64,000 nucleotides of DNA from Corynebacterium genitalium ATCC 33030. Lineage in GTDB: Bacteria > Actinomycetota > Actinomycetes > Mycobacteriales > Mycobacteriaceae. Position numbers and translations under genes: made by a program. How positions within the stretch are numbered: the first letter of the stretch is position 1; every line of letters starts with the position of its first letter. Shown in pieces: positions 53,621 to 64,000 of the stretch. Under the pieces are notes generated by a model, which ran no database searches, was not told where the DNA came from, and was given only the letters and a program-made list of their open reading frames with translations. The stretch covers positions 806,001 through 870,000 of the forward strand of contig NZ_CM000961.1 of assembly GCF_000143825.1 (NCBI RefSeq), in the 5' to 3' direction.

Positions 53621-54475
53621 TTAGCGCTGGTCCTCCGGGCGGATGTCGCGCGCGGTCTCGTCGACAACGTTGCCATCGGTCTCAATGCGCTCCTTGGCGA
53701 CGTCCTCGGTGACCTGGTGGGTCTCACGAACGGTGTCCTTGTCCAGGGAGACCTTCTCGACCGGCACGGACTCCTTGGAAACGTTCACGCGGTCCTCGTG
53801 CAGGGTGACGGATGCTTCCTGCTCGCCGAGCTGGCCGTCGTAGTTAGCGCGGTCTGCCTCGGAGATCGGCTCGCGGGTAACGCGGACCTCTTCGCGCTCA
53901 ACCGGAACCTCAACGGTCTCGGTCTCGTGAACGACGTACTTGCGCAGGCGGACCTGGCCGGACTCGACGCGGTCCTTGTCAACGTTCAGCTGCTCCTCGG
54001 AGCGAACGATGGAACCGTCGTTGTCTGCAGCAACGCCCTCGCGGTCAGCGAACTCAGCGCGGTCGCGGTCAGCAGCGTGCTCGCCGTAACCAGCGCCAGC
54101 GCCTGCACCGGCAGCAGCGCCAGCAGCCGGAGCGCCGGTCTCGTACTGGGTACGGTCCTCAACGCCCTCGAGGCCGTAGTGGCGGTAGAAAGCCTCCTGG
54201 TCAGCGTTGGTCAGGTGGCCGTTCTCGTCCAGGTCCGGGGCGTCCTCGATGCGGTCCTTAGCGAAGGCCAAGTGCAGCTCGCCGTCCTGCAGGGAGTGGC
54301 CGCGCAGCGGGACGATGGAGTCGCCGCCACCGAACAGGCCGTGGTTGACGGAGACGAAGTCCGGCTGGCCGGTGGTGTCGTTAACGTAAACGTCCTTTAC
54401 GCCACCAACCTTGTCGCCATTAACGTCGTATGCAGTTGCGTTTGCAAGGTCTTCAATGCGGTTGTAGTCAGCCAT
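53621..54475 (-). CDS. PRC-barrel and DUF2382 (YsnF-like) stress protein
   Basis: 284 residues. Residues 1-85 are a PRC-barrel (LANATAYDVNGDKVGGVKDVYV, DSIVPLRGH); 90-165 a linker with a repeated Gly/Ala run; 170-284 the acidic DUF2382 domain (EEQLNVDKDRVESGQVRLRKYVVHETETVEVPV). Cytoplasmic, typically induced by general stress. A perfect CRP/GlxR-type palindrome lies 257 bp upstream of its start. Confidence 0.9.
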   Translation of the reverse strand: MADYNRIEDLANATAYDVNGDKVGGVKDVYVNDTTGQPDFVSVNHGLFGGGDSIVPLRGHSLQDGELHLAFAKDRIEDAPDLDENGHLTNADQEAFYRHYGLEGVEDRTQYETGAPAAGAAAGAGAGAGYGEHAADRDRAEFADREGVAADNDGSIVRSEEQLNVDKDRVESGQVRLRKYVVHETETVEVPVEREEVRVTREPISEADRANYDGQLGEQEASVTLHEDRVNVSKESVPVEKVSLDKDTVRETHQVTEDVAKERIETDGNVVDETARDIRPEDQR

Positions 54476-57232: not shown

Positions 57233-60160
57233 TTGAAAGATCAACAACGCGGCGTGCAAATTGCTGGCCTGCTCAGGACTTTGGTTGCCGTAGTGACGGC
57301 ATTTGCTCTGTTCATTACAGGAGCCATGTTCAATCTTGTGCCGAGCTCGGAGGCCCAGAATGCTAACCCGGCACCGGTGACCTTTGGGCAGCCGACAGTG
57401 ACGCAGAACGGTCAGCCGATTGACAAGCAGTTGGATACGCGTGACCGTGTGAGCCTCAGCTTCCCGTGGACGGCAAACGGCACCATTGAGCAGGGCCAGA
57501 CAATGTCCATCGACTTCCCGACAGAGATCCTGCCGCCTGCTAACAAGCTGCCGTTCAGCGTGTCGGGTCAAGAGGCTGGGTCGTGCGAAGTGCAGGAACG
57601 AACCCTGGTTTGCACCTTCAACCGGGACATCAATCAGGATAGTGTGACTGGCTCGATCGGCCTGAGTGTGGGGCTCGGTGAGACCCCAGGCCCGGATTGG
57701 AAGTTCAACACCGTACCGGGCGGTGAACCGCTCTCCGTTGCTATCCCTGGCGGCAGCGTGGTGCCGTACGTGCTGCCGGAAGGCAAAGAAGACCGCGTTT
57801 CGAAGTACGGAACCATCGATTACGTAAACAATGTCATCGACTGGACGATCATCATCCCCGCTGAGAACCTCACTGATGAGAACGGTCAGGCCAGGTCTGT
57901 CCGCATCACTGACCAGCTGCAAAGCCGAAACCACGCCTACGTCGGGTTTGATGACCCCAACAGGGTTGTGTACGTTTACCAGGAGGATCTGAGTCGCAAG
58001 AATCAGGCGTGGCCGAACAGCAACGTCACCGCCCAGGATGGGGGTCGCGGTTTCGCTGCGGACATCGCCCCTCGGAGGGGTGGCTGGAACCCAGAGTGGG
58101 ATCTGAAGATCACCTACCAGACGGAATTCGTCGGTGACCCGAAGGACCGTGATAAGTTCGAAAACTCGGCGAACGTCGTTGTTACTGACTCGCAGGGCAT
58201 CGAGACCACGACTGCGGCTGAGGAGCGCAACGCTGGGGAGCACACCTACGACGCCGCTGCTGCTGCAGCGGGTGCGGGTGTTGAGCGCGGCTCATTCGCA
58301 CTGACGAAGACCGTGATCGGTGAGCAGGAGTGCATTGCACGAATCGAGGAGCCCTTTACGGTCCAGGTCGACATCGACGTGAGGGACTCGGTCGGGCCGA
58401 ACTTCCAGTTCCCGGGAACGGTCAAGCAGACTGAGGCGCAGCCCGCCGACGGCAAGATTTCTTATACCGCGGCCCTTCGGCCCGGTACGACGCTCACCGG
58501 TTACGACTCTCTGCCGCAGGGTTCGAAAGTTACCATTACTGAGGTGAAGCCGGACATCGCAGGTGTTGAATTCGCTGATCCGGATTACAGCCCGGGCCAG
58601 ACCGTGACGATCGAGAACGCCGCAGAGAATGCGACTATCGAGCTGACCAATAGGATCGAGTCTTGTCCGCAGCCTACAACGGAACAGCCGGAGCCGACCA
58701 CCACGGAGGAGCAGCCGGAGCCGACCACAACGGACGAGGAGCCGGAGCCGACCACGACGGACGAGGAGCCGGAACCGACCACAACGGACGAGGAGCCGGA
58801 GCCGACCACAACGGACGAGGAGCCGGTGCCGACCACGACGGATGAGCAGCCGGAACCGACCACGACGGACGAGGAACCGGAGCCGACCACGACGGATGAG
58901 GAGCCGGAGCCGACCACAACGGACGAGGAGCCGGAGCCGACCACGACGGATGAGGAGCCGGAGCCGACGACAACGGATGAGCAGCCGGAGCCGACCACGA
59001 CGGACGAGGAGCCGGAGCCGACCACGACTGATGAGCAGCCGGAGCCGACCACGACGGATGAGGAGCCGGAGCCGACCACGACGGAGGAGCAGCCGGAGCC
59101 GACCACGACTGATGAGCAGCCGGAACCGACGACGACGGACGAGGAGCCGGAGCCGACCACGACGGAGGAGCAGCCGGAACCGACCACGACTGATGAGCAG
59201 CCGGAGCCGACCACGACGGACGAGGAGCCGGAACCGACCACGACGGACGAGGAGCCGGAGCCGACGACGACGGACGAGGAGCCGGAGCCGACGACCACGG
59301 ATGAGGAGCCGGAGCCGACCACGACGGAGGAGCAGCCGGAGCCGACCACCACGGGTGAGCAGCCGGAGCCGACGACCACGGATGAGGAGCCGGAACCGAC
59401 CACCACGGATGAGCAGCCGGAGCCGACCACGACGGATGAGCAGCCGGAGCCGACCACCACGGATGAGCAGCTGGAGCCGACCACCACGGATGAGCAGCCG
59501 GAGCCGACCACCACGGATGAGGAGCCGGAGCCGACCACGACGGATGAGCAGCCGGAGCCGACCACCACGGATGAGCAGACCATCCCCGGTGGCGATGACG
59601 GCGAGACCGGTGGCAACGGTGACGGAACCAACGACGGTGACGATGACGGTGAGACCGGTGGCAACGGTGACGGAACCGACGGCGACGGCAACAACGGCGA
59701 AACCGACGGAGAAACCGACGGTGAAGACGACGGCGGAACCAACGGCAACGACGACGCCAACAAGGAAGGTTCTTCTGCCTTCCCGTGGTGGCTGCTGCTC
59801 CTGGTCCCGGTCATTCCGATCGGTAAGTGGTTGATCGACAACTTCCCGGGCGGTTCCTCGAACCCGGCACCGGGCAAGCCATCCCCGGGTGAGCCAGCGC
59901 CGGGCCGGGGAGATAAGCCCGCTACGGACGAGCCAGGTGGTTCGGAAGGCCAGGGTGACAAACCCAAGGGCAAGCAAGGCGATGAACCCAAGGGTGGACG
60001 CGGTGACAAACCCCAGCAGGCTGAGTCCGGCCAGCCTGGACGAGCCCCTGGTGGGCAACCCGCACAGCCCGGTAAGCCGGGTGGCGGCCGCCAGTCCATC
60101 CAGTCTGTGCCGTCCGGCGCGACTGCGAAGAGCGGTAACGTCCCGGACTTCATCGGCTAA
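57233..60160 (+). CDS. Large surface adhesin-like protein with DUF5979 domain, acidic Thr-rich stalk and C-terminal IQSVPSGAT tag
   Basis: 975 residues from TTG with GGGAGCG upstream. Signal peptide 1-41 ends SSEA. Residues 45-340 form Ig-like adhesin domains of the type seen in Gram-positive MSCRAMMs; 345-475 is a DUF5979-like domain (FALTKTVIG, PQGSKVTITEV, LTN). Residues 482-783 are about thirty copies of the 10-residue unit TTTDEEPEP/TTTDEQPEP, then an Asp/Gly-rich stretch, a short hydrophobic segment WWLLLLVPVIPIGKW (about 852-866), and a 100-residue Gly/Pro/Lys tail ending IQSVPSGAT...FIG. No LPxTG is present. Followed by a terminator. Two later proteins share the tag. Confidence 0.88.
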   Translation: MKDQQRGVQIAGLLRTLVAVVTAFALFITGAMFNLVPSSEAQNANPAPVTFGQPTVTQNGQPIDKQLDTRDRVSLSFPWTANGTIEQGQTMSIDFPTEILPPANKLPFSVSGQEAGSCEVQERTLVCTFNRDINQDSVTGSIGLSVGLGETPGPDWKFNTVPGGEPLSVAIPGGSVVPYVLPEGKEDRVSKYGTIDYVNNVIDWTIIIPAENLTDENGQARSVRITDQLQSRNHAYVGFDDPNRVVYVYQEDLSRKNQAWPNSNVTAQDGGRGFAADIAPRRGGWNPEWDLKITYQTEFVGDPKDRDKFENSANVVVTDSQGIETTTAAEERNAGEHTYDAAAAAAGAGVERGSFALTKTVIGEQECIARIEEPFTVQVDIDVRDSVGPNFQFPGTVKQTEAQPADGKISYTAALRPGTTLTGYDSLPQGSKVTITEVKPDIAGVEFADPDYSPGQTVTIENAAENATIELTNRIESCPQPTTEQPEPTTTEEQPEPTTTDEEPEPTTTDEEPEPTTTDEEPEPTTTDEEPVPTTTDEQPEPTTTDEEPEPTTTDEEPEPTTTDEEPEPTTTDEEPEPTTTDEQPEPTTTDEEPEPTTTDEQPEPTTTDEEPEPTTTEEQPEPTTTDEQPEPTTTDEEPEPTTTEEQPEPTTTDEQPEPTTTDEEPEPTTTDEEPEPTTTDEEPEPTTTDEEPEPTTTEEQPEPTTTGEQPEPTTTDEEPEPTTTDEQPEPTTTDEQPEPTTTDEQLEPTTTDEQPEPTTTDEEPEPTTTDEQPEPTTTDEQTIPGGDDGETGGNGDGTNDGDDDGETGGNGDGTDGDGNNGETDGETDGEDDGGTNGNDDANKEGSSAFPWWLLLLVPVIPIGKWLIDNFPGGSSNPAPGKPSPGEPAPGRGDKPATDEPGGSEGQGDKPKGKQGDEPKGGRGDKPQQAESGQPGRAPGGQPAQPGKPGGGRQSIQSVPSGATAKSGNVPDFIG
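58677..59579 (+). repeat. About thirty 30-bp tandem repeats inside the adhesin gene
   Basis: Near-identical units (GAGCCGGAGCCGACCACGA type) encode the Thr/Asp/Glu/Pro stalk. Copy number is likely to vary by slipped replication without frame change. Confidence 0.95.
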
Positions 60161-60180
60161 AAATTAACCGCTCACCGTGC

Positions 60181-60220
60181 AAGACGGGCTGAAGGGAGAA
60201 ATCCTTTAGCCCGTCTTTTA
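60181..60220 (+). terminator. Terminator of the adhesin gene
   Basis: AAGACGGGCT at 60181 pairs with AGCCCGTCTT at 60208, then TTA. Confidence 0.8.
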
Positions 60221-60298
60221 GTTTCCTCCCAAGACAATGACAATTGCTTGGGTATCGATGTCGCTTTCCAGCCCAAGTATGATTTAGGATATTTCGCG

Positions 60299-61069
60299 AT
60301 GAGTACTGCGACACCAAACCCCAAGAACCTGCCGGATCCCGAAGATACTTCCTACGGTAAGTACCCGGATGACACCCGGGAAAGCGAAGCGACCGAAAGC
60401 TCGAATAAGAAGCTGCCCCTGATCCTCGCTGCGCTAATCGGCGCAGTCGCCCTGATTTGCGCCATTGTTTTCATCCCGTGGGGAGGAAGCGACGACACAG
60501 AGGAGGCGTCGGAAGCACCGCAGCCTCAGACGAGCGCGGCGCCCGAAATTATCGAGGACGGCTATGTCGACGATTCCGGTCAGCAGGAAGAGGAGCTCAA
60601 ACCGGTCCCTCAAAGCCATGAGGACATCAATGAGATGGCGTTGCAGATGAGCATCGGCACCGCGCCGGTCGAGATGGTGGGCCTGACGGCTGAGGGTGCG
60701 CTCATTCCGCCGGAGGACGTCAGTCGTCTCGGGTGGTACGCGTCGTCCGCGATTCCGGGCGATCCGGAGTCGAAGGGGTCCACCGTGATCACCGGGCACG
60801 TCAACCACCAGACGCAGGGCCAGGGTTTCGCTTACAACTTCACGCAGCTTGCGGCGGGCGATGAGGTCTCCGTGCTTATCGACGGCACCACCCACACCTA
60901 CCGCGTCACCAAACCCCCCTTCCGCGCCTCCAAGGAGGGGGCTCTGCCTGAAGAGGTGAATGATTCGACTGGTGAGAACAAGCTCGTGTTGATCACATGC
61001 GGTGGTGAGTTCGTCGGTGGAACGCTCGGTTATGCAGACAACGTATTCGTTGTTGCAGAACCAATTTAA
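60299..61069 (+). CDS. Sortase-like protein (class E/F-like) lacking an Arg after the catalytic Cys
   Basis: 256 residues from ATG at 60299; a TTG at 60248 would add 17 poorly supported residues, and a TATGAT hexamer at 60279 suggests a near-leaderless message. One membrane anchor (residues 41-62), an acidic linker, then the sortase beta-barrel: VITGHVNH with His167 and LITCGG with Cys234. Known sortases need an Arg a dozen or so residues after Cys; the 22 residues that follow here contain none (GYADNVFVV where an Arg would be expected). It lies between two proteins carrying the C-terminal IQSVPSGAT tag, and could act on that instead of LPxTG. Confidence 0.82.
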   Translation: MSTATPNPKNLPDPEDTSYGKYPDDTRESEATESSNKKLPLILAALIGAVALICAIVFIPWGGSDDTEEASEAPQPQTSAAPEIIEDGYVDDSGQQEEELKPVPQSHEDINEMALQMSIGTAPVEMVGLTAEGALIPPEDVSRLGWYASSAIPGDPESKGSTVITGHVNHQTQGQGFAYNFTQLAAGDEVSVLIDGTTHTYRVTKPPFRASKEGALPEEVNDSTGENKLVLITCGGEFVGGTLGYADNVFVVAEPI

Positions 61070-61266
61070 GCCTTGCTCAGGAATTTCGTAGAAAGTTCTC
61101 CGTCAGCCTTTACATATAATTGAAAACTGGGTACGATGCTCAACGTGCTCTGACAGTTACCTAAGAATTTAAACTAAAACTGTGAGCGACGTTCGAGACG
61201 TGCCGATCACTCTTGTCGGTATCGCCATCAGGACGAAACAGATATCGACTAATCAAGGAGTGATTC

Positions 61267-62886
61267 ATGGACGCGCAGCGTAGTCTCGTGGGCCGTAAAG
61301 GCCTGCGTGCAACCCTCATCGCGTTGGTGACGGTTTTCGCCGTCTTCGTCGCTGCAGCTTTCGGGGGCAATGTTGTTCCCACAGCTAACGCGACTGAAGA
61401 TGGGCACGTTCACGGCGAGTCGGAACAGGCCAAGACTGCCGAATCCGAGGCTGAAGAGCGTGCCGAGCAGCACGAGTCTGAGCGGGCGCACACTGATGGG
61501 GAACCGGGCGAGTTCCACATTAAGAAGGAAATCGAAGACTCGAACCTGGCTCACGAGGATATGCCCGATGCGGAGGCGCAGCTGAAGGACGCCACCTTCG
61601 AGGTGACCATGGAGTTCGAGTTCCCGGAGGGTGAGACCGCTCCGGCGAAGCTTGGGCTGGATGGCAACAACACCAAGACCGTCGATCTCGCCGTTGGTAC
61701 TGACGACTACCCAGATGGAAGGGGACTTGCGTTCTCGGAGATCCCGGCAGGCACCAAGGTGACCCTCTCGGAGACCGGCAAGCCGGAGCTTGAGGGTTTC
61801 CACTTTGACGAGGAGAGGTTCATCGCTGAGCAGGTCTCCCCTGGCGATCAAAGAGTTCTGAAAGATGAGGGCAAGACCGTCACCATTGAGTTCGAAGGCG
61901 ACGATTGCTTCGAGGTCACGCTGACGAACCCGATCAGGAAGACGGTTCCGGGCGAGTTCCACATCAAAAAGCAGATCGACTACTCGAAGCTGACCGATGA
62001 GGATAAGGCTAAAGCGAAGGAGCTTGCGGAGGGGAAGCAGTTCCCGGTCAACATGACCTTCGAGTTCCCGGAGGGCACCAACCGTGAGGCTGTGCTTGAG
62101 GGTAAAGAGTTCGAGCTCGTTGGAGACAACAAGGCGCAGGTGAAGCTCAACGTCGACGCAGACCTCGAATCCTACGCAGCTGTCGGCGGCGACGAGAGGG
62201 GTATCGCATTCTCGCACCTCCCGATCGGCACCAAGGTGACTTTCTCTGAGGGCGAGAAGCCTAACCTCGGGGGCTTCGGTTACGGCGAGGAGGTCTTCAT
62301 CGTGAAGGAAGGCCACCCCCACATCAAAGACAAGCCTGTGAAGGATAAGGGTAAGACGGTCACGATCCAGATCAAGGGCAATGACTGCTTCGAGATCGCC
62401 CTTTCGAACCCGATCACGTCAGGAGCCACTCCGGGCACCGATACCCCGGGCACCGATACCCCGGGCACCGATACGCCGGGCACGGACACTCCTGGCACCG
62501 ATACGCCGGGCACGGACACCCCGGAGGAGCCGGGAAGCTCCGATGACAAGAAGAACCTGTGGTGGCTCCTGCTTTTGGTTCCGGTCATTCCGGGTCTGAT
62601 CTGGCTGTTCAACCAGGGTCCGGGTACGTCTTCCACCCCGACGCCGGGTAAGCCGGATGACAACCCGCAACCGGGTAAGCCGGGTGACACCCCGCAGCCA
62701 GGCAAGCCGGGTGACAACCCGAAGCCCGAAACGCCGCGCGAGGGTGACAAGCCCCAGCAGGCGCAGCCTGGTACTCCCGAACAACCGGTGAAGCCTGGTG
62801 CGCCCAGCGATGGGCGTCAGCCGATTCAGTCGGTGCCGTCTGGTGCGACTGAGAAGGGCGATGGAGTTGCTGATTTCATCGGCTAG
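61267..62886 (+). CDS. Surface protein with two DUF5979 domains and C-terminal IQSVPSGAT tag
   Basis: 539 residues from ATG with AAGGAG upstream. Signal peptide 1-43 (VFVAAAFGGNVVPTANA). A charged His/Glu linker leads to two homologous DUF5979 domains (about 78-225 and 228-382), each starting PGEFHIKK and ending FEVTLTNP or FEIALSNP. Then six TPGTD repeats, a hydrophobic segment WWLLLLVPVIPGLIWL (about 432-447) and a Pro/Gly/Lys tail that ends IQSVPSGAT...FIG, nearly the same as the adhesin at 57233. Both share the odd Trp-Trp-Leu4-Val-Pro-Val-Ile-Pro segment. No LPxTG. Confidence 0.88.
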   Translation: MDAQRSLVGRKGLRATLIALVTVFAVFVAAAFGGNVVPTANATEDGHVHGESEQAKTAESEAEERAEQHESERAHTDGEPGEFHIKKEIEDSNLAHEDMPDAEAQLKDATFEVTMEFEFPEGETAPAKLGLDGNNTKTVDLAVGTDDYPDGRGLAFSEIPAGTKVTLSETGKPELEGFHFDEERFIAEQVSPGDQRVLKDEGKTVTIEFEGDDCFEVTLTNPIRKTVPGEFHIKKQIDYSKLTDEDKAKAKELAEGKQFPVNMTFEFPEGTNREAVLEGKEFELVGDNKAQVKLNVDADLESYAAVGGDERGIAFSHLPIGTKVTFSEGEKPNLGGFGYGEEVFIVKEGHPHIKDKPVKDKGKTVTIQIKGNDCFEIALSNPITSGATPGTDTPGTDTPGTDTPGTDTPGTDTPGTDTPEEPGSSDDKKNLWWLLLLVPVIPGLIWLFNQGPGTSSTPTPGKPDDNPQPGKPGDTPQPGKPGDNPKPETPREGDKPQQAQPGTPEQPVKPGAPSDGRQPIQSVPSGATEKGDGVADFIG

Positions 62887-62910
62887 GAGCTAACCACTAC
62901 CTAGAAAAGG

Positions 62911-62945
62911 CGAGCTGAGGGAGCGTTCCCTCGGCTCGTCTTCTA
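62911..62945 (+). terminator. Terminator of the two-DUF5979 gene
   Basis: CGAGCTGAGGGA and TCCCTCGGCTCG form a stem with one G-T pair, followed by TCTTCTATTT. Confidence 0.75.
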
Positions 62946-63046
62946 TTTCCCGTCAAGTGGGTGAGAACTGCATGGATATTCAGGGCCGATCTTGACTCTT
63001 TCAAGGCTTGGTAACTGAATCAATGAACATGGAGCTGGACGTAAAG

Positions 63047-63081
63047 AAGCGGGTGGACTGCGTTCAGCAGCCGACCCGCTT
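63047..63081 (-). terminator. Terminator of the minus-strand surface gene
   Basis: AAGCGGGT at 63047 pairs with ACCCGCTT at 63074; read on the minus strand it stands just past the stop at 63090. Confidence 0.6.
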
Positions 63082-63089
63082 GATTGTTC

Positions 63090-64000
63090 TTATCCGATGA
63101 AGCGCGCCGTTGGATCCGTCAACGCCGTCGCGCCGGACGGCACTGATTGAATCGGTCGCCGTCCCTCTGCGGATGGGGCAGTGGGGGGACCAGAAGGCCG
63201 AGCACCTTCAGAGTTAGGCCGGCCATACGCGGGAGCGGACGGGGACTCACTTGGATAAGTAACCGGCAACGGAAGCTTTGACGGTGCGGTATCCGTCTCA
63301 ACGTTTCCAGAGCTATCCGTCGTTGTAGGCGTGGCTGCGCTGGAAGGTGGTGGAGCTGTCGAGGGCTCCGATGGTGTCGACGAATCGGGTGGCGTCGGAG
63401 CTGTTGTCGGAGCATCGGTGGAGCTGGTGGTTGGCTCAGCGCTCTCCTCGGTGGCAGTGGGGCTTGCCGGTGTGCTTTCTTCGGTGGATTCCGGGGATGG
63501 TTCTGGGCAGGACGCATCGGGATTGAATGTAAACGAATGGAAGACGACCTCATCCGGTTGAGCCTGAGGATAGAGTTCCTCATTGGCTGCGGAAGTCCAC
63601 AGATTGATGTGTAGCTGTTGCGTGCCGTTGTCGATCGGCACCCGTTCCGTCGCTGTGACATCGCTCAATATAGTGCCGTCGGAGGTTGTCGTCGTCACGC
63701 GGAGAAAACCTTCGCGCCACTCGGCGACCGTGGTCAACCTCTGCGGCCCCTCGGGGATATCGAATCCACTGATGAACATGCCGTCACCGGGTTCCGGGGC
63801 CTTGGTCAGATCGTCGGGATAGTAGGTGACGCCAGCATGCGGCAGTGGCCAGTCTTCTTCGCCCCAGCGGCTGATCTCAATGAAATCGATTTCAGTGAAC
63901 CCGCCTTGGGTGAGGTGCGTGTCGTCGACCTGTGCAGCGAGATCGTAGAGGAAGATTCCCAACACGCTACTGGGGTCCATGTGGTCGAAGTCGGCAGAGT
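63090..64000 (-). CDS. Secreted GH16/concanavalin A-like domain protein with C-terminal IQSVPSGAT tag (5' partial)
   Basis: The frame is open to the window end; 303 residues are visible. The first part has the lectin/glucanase pattern DFDHMDPSSVLGIFLYD and IDFIEISRWGEE, in which the Glu/Asp pair resembles the GH16 ExDxxE site with changes (EIDFIEISRW), so catalysis is uncertain. A Ser/Thr/Pro-rich stalk (about 165-250) follows, and the protein ends IQSVPSGAT...FIG. Unlike the two plus-strand tag proteins there is no hydrophobic segment before the tag. The signal peptide must lie outside the window. Confidence 0.82.
   Translation of the reverse strand, partial: SADFDHMDPSSVLGIFLYDLAAQVDDTHLTQGGFTEIDFIEISRWGEEDWPLPHAGVTYYPDDLTKAPEPGDGMFISGFDIPEGPQRLTTVAEWREGFLRVTTTTSDGTILSDVTATERVPIDNGTQQLHINLWTSAANEELYPQAQPDEVVFHSFTFNPDASCPEPSPESTEESTPASPTATEESAEPTTSSTDAPTTAPTPPDSSTPSEPSTAPPPSSAATPTTTDSSGNVETDTAPSKLPLPVTYPSESPSAPAYGRPNSEGARPSGPPTAPSAEGRRPIQSVPSGATALTDPTARFIG

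Follow-up and report, generated by a model that had tools for sequence, protein, structure and literature searches.

The LPxTG signals read by sortases of classes A–E lie at the C-terminus of exported proteins, with a Pro and a small residue before the Gly, and end in a hydrophobic segment and a basic tail. A published search for sortase substrates (PMC13251363) set a pentapeptide together with a transmembrane stretch and basic residues as its requirement, and in the same paper, of 2026, the physiological role of class F sortases was termed unknown. We analysed a window of 64,000 nucleotides (C1:806001-870000) from the 2.35-Mb genome of Corynebacterium genitalium ATCC 33030, in which three exported proteins, here called A, B and C, end in a common tag, and a gene between A and B encodes a divergent sortase homologue. 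We consider it very likely that the tag is a C-terminal sorting signal read by this sortase, which would be dedicated to it. As in the LPxTG systems, the carriers are exported, the tag is C-terminal with a Pro and a small residue before the Gly, a sortase gene lies nearby, and the clients contain SpaA, thioester (TED) and T-Q ester (TQ) domains; unlike the LPxTG signals, the tag lacks the pentapeptide and has neither a hydrophobic segment nor a basic tail after the Gly. The published search rule would miss this pathway. In the open-access PMC literature, with subscription papers outside the scope, we found no description of the tag.

57233..60160, + strand: open reading frame (ORF) of protein A, 975 aa from TTG, ending RQSIQSVPSGATAKSGNVPDFIG
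59786..59836, + strand: hydrophobic segment of A, WWLLLLVPVIPIGKWLI; mean Kyte-Doolittle value 1.81, at 124 residues from the C-terminus
60089..60157, + strand: tag of A, RQSIQSVPSGATAKSGNVPDFIG; from the ORF, a DNA pattern and tag searches
60248..61069, + strand: putative dedicated sortase, divergent and class-F-like, between A and B; from Pfam, NCBIfam, predicted fold and alignments
61267..62886, + strand: ORF of protein B, 539 aa, ending RQPIQSVPSGATEKGDGVADFIG; Pfam PF19407 at 34.7 bits (cut-off 25)
62557..62607, + strand: hydrophobic segment of B, LWWLLLLVPVIPGLIWL; mean Kyte-Doolittle value 2.22, at 109 residues from the C-terminus
62815..62883, + strand: tag of B, RQPIQSVPSGATEKGDGVADFIG; from the ORF, a DNA pattern and tag searches
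63090..64000, − strand: ORF of protein C, C-terminal part, ending RRPIQSVPSGATALTDPTARFIG
63093..63161, − strand: tag of C, RRPIQSVPSGATALTDPTARFIG; from the ORF, a DNA pattern and tag searches

The tagged proteins and the sortase of C. genitalium

Protein A consists of a signal peptide (called by a heuristic), a long PTTT(D/E)E(E/Q)PE repeat stalk, a hydrophobic segment, a P/G-rich linker and the tag, and gave no Pfam match at E ≤ 0.1. Protein B carries a signal peptide, a DUF5979 domain, TPGTD repeats, a hydrophobic segment, a P/G-rich linker and the tag, while protein C is made up of a signal peptide, a domain with an EIDFIE motif, an S/T/P stalk and the tag, with no hydrophobic segment ahead of it. 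Gene C runs beyond the window to 64370 on the chromosome (complete as L005:14090-15370, 426 aa). A family name for protein C was dropped, since no Pfam family reached its cut-off and no PDB sequence matched at E ≤ 0.1; its EIDFIE motif is reminiscent of glycoside hydrolase family 16.

The earlier note on this DNA had described a signature common to the three C-termini, and indeed A, B and C all end in RxxIQSVPSGAT-x8-FIG; the spacer between GAT and FIG, given there as 6-8 residues, is 8 in all of them. The WWLLLLVPVIP segment common to A and B and the lack of a hydrophobic segment in C were likewise found as described. The likeness of the three tags exceeds chance. When the last 30 residues of B alone were searched against its own genome, they returned A (2.4e-7), C (9.2e-6) and a fourth tagged protein, D (2.8e-13), which is encoded just outside the window (694 aa, Big_8 domain, LWWLLLLVPVVPGLIWL), as well as, more weakly (E 0.0047 and 0.016), two small exported proteins. 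Furthermore, a DNA pattern for IQSVP, with Ser as TCN, matched the whole genome four times, at A, B, C and D. The two small proteins (165 and 139 aa) are encoded elsewhere, between gatC-like and ligA-like genes, and consist of a signal peptide, a Gly/Ala-rich hydrophobic stretch, a Pro-rich linker and a tag variant (C-termini VKSGAT...RFI and VQSGAT...AYI), so that six tagged proteins were found in this genome.

The possibility that the tag belongs to one common folded domain, raised in the earlier note, was rejected because the carriers are of diverse architecture, with DUF5979, Big_8, TED/TQ or SpaA domains, the domain of protein C, or small Pro-rich proteins.

The sortase gene probably starts at the ATG at 60299, 51 bases into the ORF, and its product comprises basic residues, one membrane segment, an acidic stretch and a sortase domain with a His (TGHVN) and a Cys (LITCGG). 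It scored 47.1 bits against Pfam Sortase PF04203 (cut-off 26.6) and 77.9 bits against the NCBIfam class F model NF033748, below the 166-bit cut-off, as did five further tag sortases (64-83 bits). Class F is the best family match, and the tag sortases have its TCGG...Y-x-(D/N)-N region in common, whereas the six scored all remain under the cut-off; this is not peculiar to the tag group, since the comparator L254 also fails it (79 bits), whereas the comparator L261 (184 bits) and the one scored Micromonospora sister sortase (200 bits) exceed it. A structure prediction for the 169-residue domain reached a mean pLDDT of 85.5, and all 50 PDB structure matches listed were sortases, with sortase C 3o0p as the best (TM-score 0.65). 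H80 and C147 were invariant in 20/20 aligned rows. By its predicted fold, His and Cys, the protein is thus placed in the sortase superfamily. In a tree of 112 sortases, built by a quick method without bootstrap and containing several long branches, the tag sortases formed one side of one branch. A PF04203 search of the own genome returned the pilus sortase only and was excluded from counting, because it missed the window sortase.

Distribution of the tag and the sortase

We searched 242 Corynebacterium genomes with tag models built from 17 tags (A3) and then from 28 tags (A4, 31 positions). The first model at E ≤ 0.5 matched 134 of the 242; its weak matches were taken for chance, and the counts use the second model at E ≤ 1e-3. 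The tag was found in 49 genomes, where the complete frames are 140 to 2875 residues long, and tblastn with the window sortase detected a homologue in most of the fetched tag loci. A sortase model from a 15-row alignment (A5) matched 53 genomes at E ≤ 1e-10, of which 51 were at E ≤ 1.2e-72; the two weak matches (6.6e-19 and 3.6e-12) were left out of the 51. All 49 tag genomes lie among the 51 sortase genomes, and none of the remaining 191 carried the tag at E ≤ 1e-3, in agreement with the co-occurrence considered in the earlier note. This exceeds mere adjacency, because in seven genomes (G083, G063, G064, G110, G129, G197 and G219) the tag gene lies 24 kb or more from the sortase or on a separate contig. 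One of the two sortase genomes without a tag, G218, has its sortase frame beginning 154 bases into the contig.

The same sortase subfamily was found in Gordonia, Rhodococcus, Tsukamurella, Williamsia and Antrihabitans, beside secreted proteins ending in RxPIxSIPSG plus 3-6 residues. When the Corynebacterium tag model was run on a family draw of 301 genomes, three doubtful matches appeared in other genera (E ~0.004). One of them (L142) was real, being a protein that ends RHRLQSVPSGSIVAG immediately ahead of a sortase homologue, and the other two (L140 and L141) were discarded as looking like chance frames. When this draw was searched for the sortase, 42 non-Corynebacterium genomes matched at E ≤ 5.6e-31 (next match 2.5e-27), and 40 of these 42 loci have a tag nearby: among the first 23, 18 were recognised by motif and 5, with Ala before the Gly, by eye, followed by 17 of 19. 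In both untagged loci (L228 and L242) the sortase stands at a contig end; in L233 there is also a chance match of 76 aa. Model A7, made from 23 short tags beside such sortases, matched 40 genomes of the draw at E ≤ 5e-6, all among the 42; it misses G329 and G419, the latter with a variant tag (L184), matches nine further genomes only at E 0.002-0.009, and does not pick up the Corynebacterium form. Since A7 was trained on tags beside sortases, its positives are partly built in, and its silence elsewhere is the informative part.

We further inspected the best 80 of 104 relatives in named genomes, namely 68 Mycobacteriales (one titled only Actinomycetes) and 12 Micromonospora. The tag was present on the sortase strand in 60 of the 68 loci, with its stop 72-1317 bases (median 192) ahead of the sortase domain in 58 and after the domain in two (L302 and L304). 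One of the loci with both tag gene and sortase is from Rhodococcus erythropolis (L326). Three of the eight untagged loci end at contig ends (L289, L316 and L330), and the other five (L275, L281, L284, L290 and L292, taken as G110, G064, G129, G219 and G083) have tags elsewhere in the genome. The core motif, R-x-x-[ILV]-x-S-[VI]-P-[STA]-G, occurred in 65 of 4428 ORFs of the 68 loci, always on the sortase strand, but in 0 of 2233 ORFs of 33 control loci; a looser motif matched 71 ORFs versus 3. No tag was found in 21 loci with other sortases from the same bacterial family, nor in the 12 loci of the Micromonospora sister sortase (L332-L343, LITCGGQFIGGRTGYADN). Four of the latter loci were inspected, and no obvious LPxTG partner adjoined the sortase.

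The signal, its proposed reading and the alternatives

The 28 rows of model A4 were gathered by model searches without a fixed motif, and their R and G are invariant (28/28). A wider set of 104 distinct tags (59 from Corynebacterium, 45 from other genera) was gathered with a motif that demands R and G and allows at most 20 residues after the Gly. In this set, Pro is retained in 101 tags, and directly before the Gly 90 tags have S, 8 have T and 6 have A, the Ala being found in 6 of the 45 tags from other genera; the other Ser of the tag and its Thr also vary. Outside Corynebacterium, the prevailing form appears to be R-[ND]-P-x-x-R-[VT]-P-[IVL]-x-S-[IV]-P-[STA]-G. The Gly is followed by only 11-15 residues in Corynebacterium and 3-6 in other genera, too few to span a membrane, and, as the earlier note said, the tag differs from the hydrophobic and basic ending of LPxTG signals. 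The same genome also holds a pilus-type cluster (L218:4458-9476, C1:918458-923476) with a SpaA-like pilin ending in LPSTGG, a hydrophobic stretch and RRKTA, a second protein with LPRGVGASTG, a hydrophobic stretch and KRKKRS, and a sortase of pilus type by context; its signals contrast with the tail-less tag. The Braun lipoprotein is attached to the wall through its C-terminal Lys. Such an attachment was rejected here, because the tagged proteins end in different residues (K, G, A, Q, S, I, N and others).

Of the 94 tag ORFs whose 5' end is complete, 76 passed a rough signal-peptide rule, including 44 of 46 outside Corynebacterium. In the window sortase, the membrane segment follows basic residues and is itself followed by acidic ones; by eye, five other Corynebacterium sortases show the same layout. 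A lipobox rule was passed by 35 of 38 non-Corynebacterium sortases (L294-L331), which are thus predicted lipoproteins (of the remaining three, L302 and L308 show a lipobox by eye and L330 is truncated), by none of 41 Corynebacterium sortases and by 6 of 33 comparators. A phrase search of the open-access PMC literature found no description of lipidated bacterial sortases; in PMC1586193 the term 'lipoprotein sortases' occurs a single time, in a table of classification, with no description of a lipidated sortase. Since the sortase domain is predicted to lie outside the plasma membrane, the tag should lie outside too.

We then scanned eight client proteins for domains. L282 and L287 contain TED and TQ domains, L044 has fifteen TQ domains, and SpaA domains were found in L305, L302, L310 and L294 (Tsukamurella, Gordonia and Rhodococcus), while none of the three was found in L321. 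These domains are typical of sortase substrates. Thioester proteins nearly always bear a C-terminal LPXTG (PMC4450167), the place of which is occupied here by the tag.

In the proposed mechanism, the tagged proteins would be exported through their signal peptides and would meet a sortase domain held outside the plasma membrane. The domain would be tethered in Corynebacterium by a membrane segment at the N-terminus of the enzyme, and in the other genera probably by a Cys that carries a lipid. The sortase would recognise the core motif close to the C-terminus and, by analogy with LPxT-G, may cleave before the Gly, releasing a tail of about 4-16 residues. The protein would then be transferred to a wall component that serves as amino acceptor, in the simplest case a peptidoglycan precursor, and the WWLLLLVPVIP segment of A, B and D, which precedes the tag, would stay with it.

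The hydrophobic segment is not part of the signal, because many tag ORFs do without it. A WW(L/I)LLIP-type motif is present in 32 of 63 distinct Corynebacterium tag ORFs, four of the other 31 have a different hydrophobic stretch (L038:12863-15097, L047 and two in L037), and none was found in the remaining 27. Protein C is one of these, and its last 220 residues give a best Kyte-Doolittle window of only 0.37. (The distances listed above for A and B run from the start of the best 17-residue window to the C-terminus.) Outside Corynebacterium, 0 of 46 tag ORFs has a convincing segment, and the two motif matches there fall in SpaA domains. The earlier note had pointed out that a segment spanning the plasma membrane would put the tag inside in A and B but outside in C. 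This puzzle is largely dissolved, with the tag independent of the segment and the sortase predicted outside.

The WWLLLLVPVIP segment, some 100 residues away from the anchor, could instead lie within the mycomembrane or cross it. The PS2 S-layer protein of C. glutamicum likewise has a single hydrophobic segment near its C-terminus, and this is reported as a mycomembrane anchor, a precedent for such a placement (PMC12337289); in PS2, however, the segment sits at the C-terminus itself, and the accessible part of that paper mentions no tag or sortase. By eye, GSS often flanks the segment on one or both sides (A, B, L051, L062, L094-L098). These Ser/Gly patches resemble reported surroundings of O-mycoloylation and might mark a mycomembrane segment.

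An extension of the sorting-signal reading, which we hold only tentatively, is that these enzymes form a separate sortase class of Mycobacteriales that works without membrane retention of the substrate and in Corynebacterium anchors adhesins whose upstream segment crosses the mycomembrane. Outside Corynebacterium the enzyme, being a predicted lipoprotein, may work at a distance from the translocon, perhaps as far out as the inner mycomembrane face, where it would take hold of released proteins through their short soluble C-terminal tag and link them to a wall acceptor.

Several points weigh against the view of the tag as a sorting signal. We infer tag recognition, the cleavage site, the acceptor, sortase activity and the location of the segment, and wall attachment is a prediction. 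The signal contains no membrane-retention element, which leaves the capture of an exported protein unexplained, and the 11-15 residues after the Gly in Corynebacterium are unaccounted for. The Pro is absent from two of the six tags of the source genome, the signal-peptide rule is passed by no more than 32 of the 48 Corynebacterium tag ORFs that are complete, and no invariant Arg was found in the 20 rows at the expected catalytic place in the last strand, where comparators of the same bacterial family vary too. The co-occurrence counts take no account of common descent, and some of the searched genomes contributed tags to models A4 and A7. Finally, no tag was found in G143, which has the sortase and, unlike G218, could be assessed. 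Frames resembling an insertion-sequence transposase adjoin this sortase by eye (L204:4915-6365), and the tag gene may have been lost.

Among the other explanations, the sortase homologue might bind or cleave the tag without anchoring, and so trim or release surface proteins with water as the acceptor. The lack of an invariant Arg, the short tail and the predicted lipoprotein nature of 35 of the 38 sortases outside Corynebacterium would fit such an activity, but the invariant His and Cys and the predicted fold are those of a sortase, and TED, TQ or SpaA domains, known from anchored adhesins, are present in several of the clients; we regard it as improbable. Still less likely is that the tag is an acylation site, at which O-mycoloylation would place the protein in the mycomembrane. 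The substrates of MytC/Cmt1 are likewise exported envelope proteins with Ser/Gly/Ala-rich surroundings, and most tag carriers presumably belong to mycolate-making genera. A tag Ser followed by small residues resembles the mapped sites, mostly Ser near Gly, Ala or Ser (PMC11066868), and PorA is acylated on Ser15 (PMC11927696). However, the published sites follow no strict consensus (PMC11066868), whereas the tag is strict, and the acylation idea predicts no sortase. The earlier note had taken the conserved Ser and Thr for possible acylation sites, whereas the Ser before the Gly, taken here as the proposed site rather than another Ser or Thr in or near the tags, is replaced by Ala in the 6 of 45 tags mentioned above.

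In addition, seven tag and sortase genomes were checked for Pks13, which was found in G000, G005 and G177 but not in G102 (C. amycolatum SK46), G099, G069 and G034, where no match exceeded 47.5 bits (cut-off 2100). The pathway thus does not seem to need mycolic acids, and acylation as the general function of the tag was rejected on account of the Ala variants and the genomes without Pks13. Of the proposal of a recognition or acylation signal in the earlier note, the recognition part is supported, by the exported carriers and the co-occurrence with the sortase, and a general Ser/Thr acylation and a need for mycolates are not. We give the least credence to a cytoplasmic tag that would bind a cytoplasmic partner behind WWLLLLVPVIP as a stop-transfer segment, and rejected it. 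The segment is indeed of membrane-spanning length in A, B and D, and its motif is shared by about half of the Corynebacterium tag ORFs; the 27 segment-free ORFs, protein C included, and the 46 outside Corynebacterium, 44 of which pass the signal-peptide rule, argue against it. So do the residues after the segment, which are mostly acidic, contrary to the positive-inside rule for a cytoplasmic tail (mean charge −1.72 after versus −0.59 before in 32 segments, with the side after being more positive in 9 of 32).

Read as a sorting signal, the tag offers testable substrates, such as the peptides RVPISQIPSGPTSRP, for the class-F-like sortase group, and a short soluble sorting tag may suit protein ligation. 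If true, this reading would reveal how mycolic-acid bacteria attach large adhesins, including C. tuberculostearicum and C. amycolatum, corynebacteria known from people.

Neighbouring genes

A paralogue of protein C is encoded downstream of D, at window-equivalent 67248-68573 (L005:18248-19573, + strand), with about 52% identity over 269 residues. It has no tag and ends in the amphipathic-looking RLWRGIRGFFGF, perhaps a different means of surface retention. Within the window, at 53621-54475 on the − strand, lies a gene for a 284-aa acidic protein; by eye, its start resembles a PRC barrel, and its second half is charged and similar to DUF2382.

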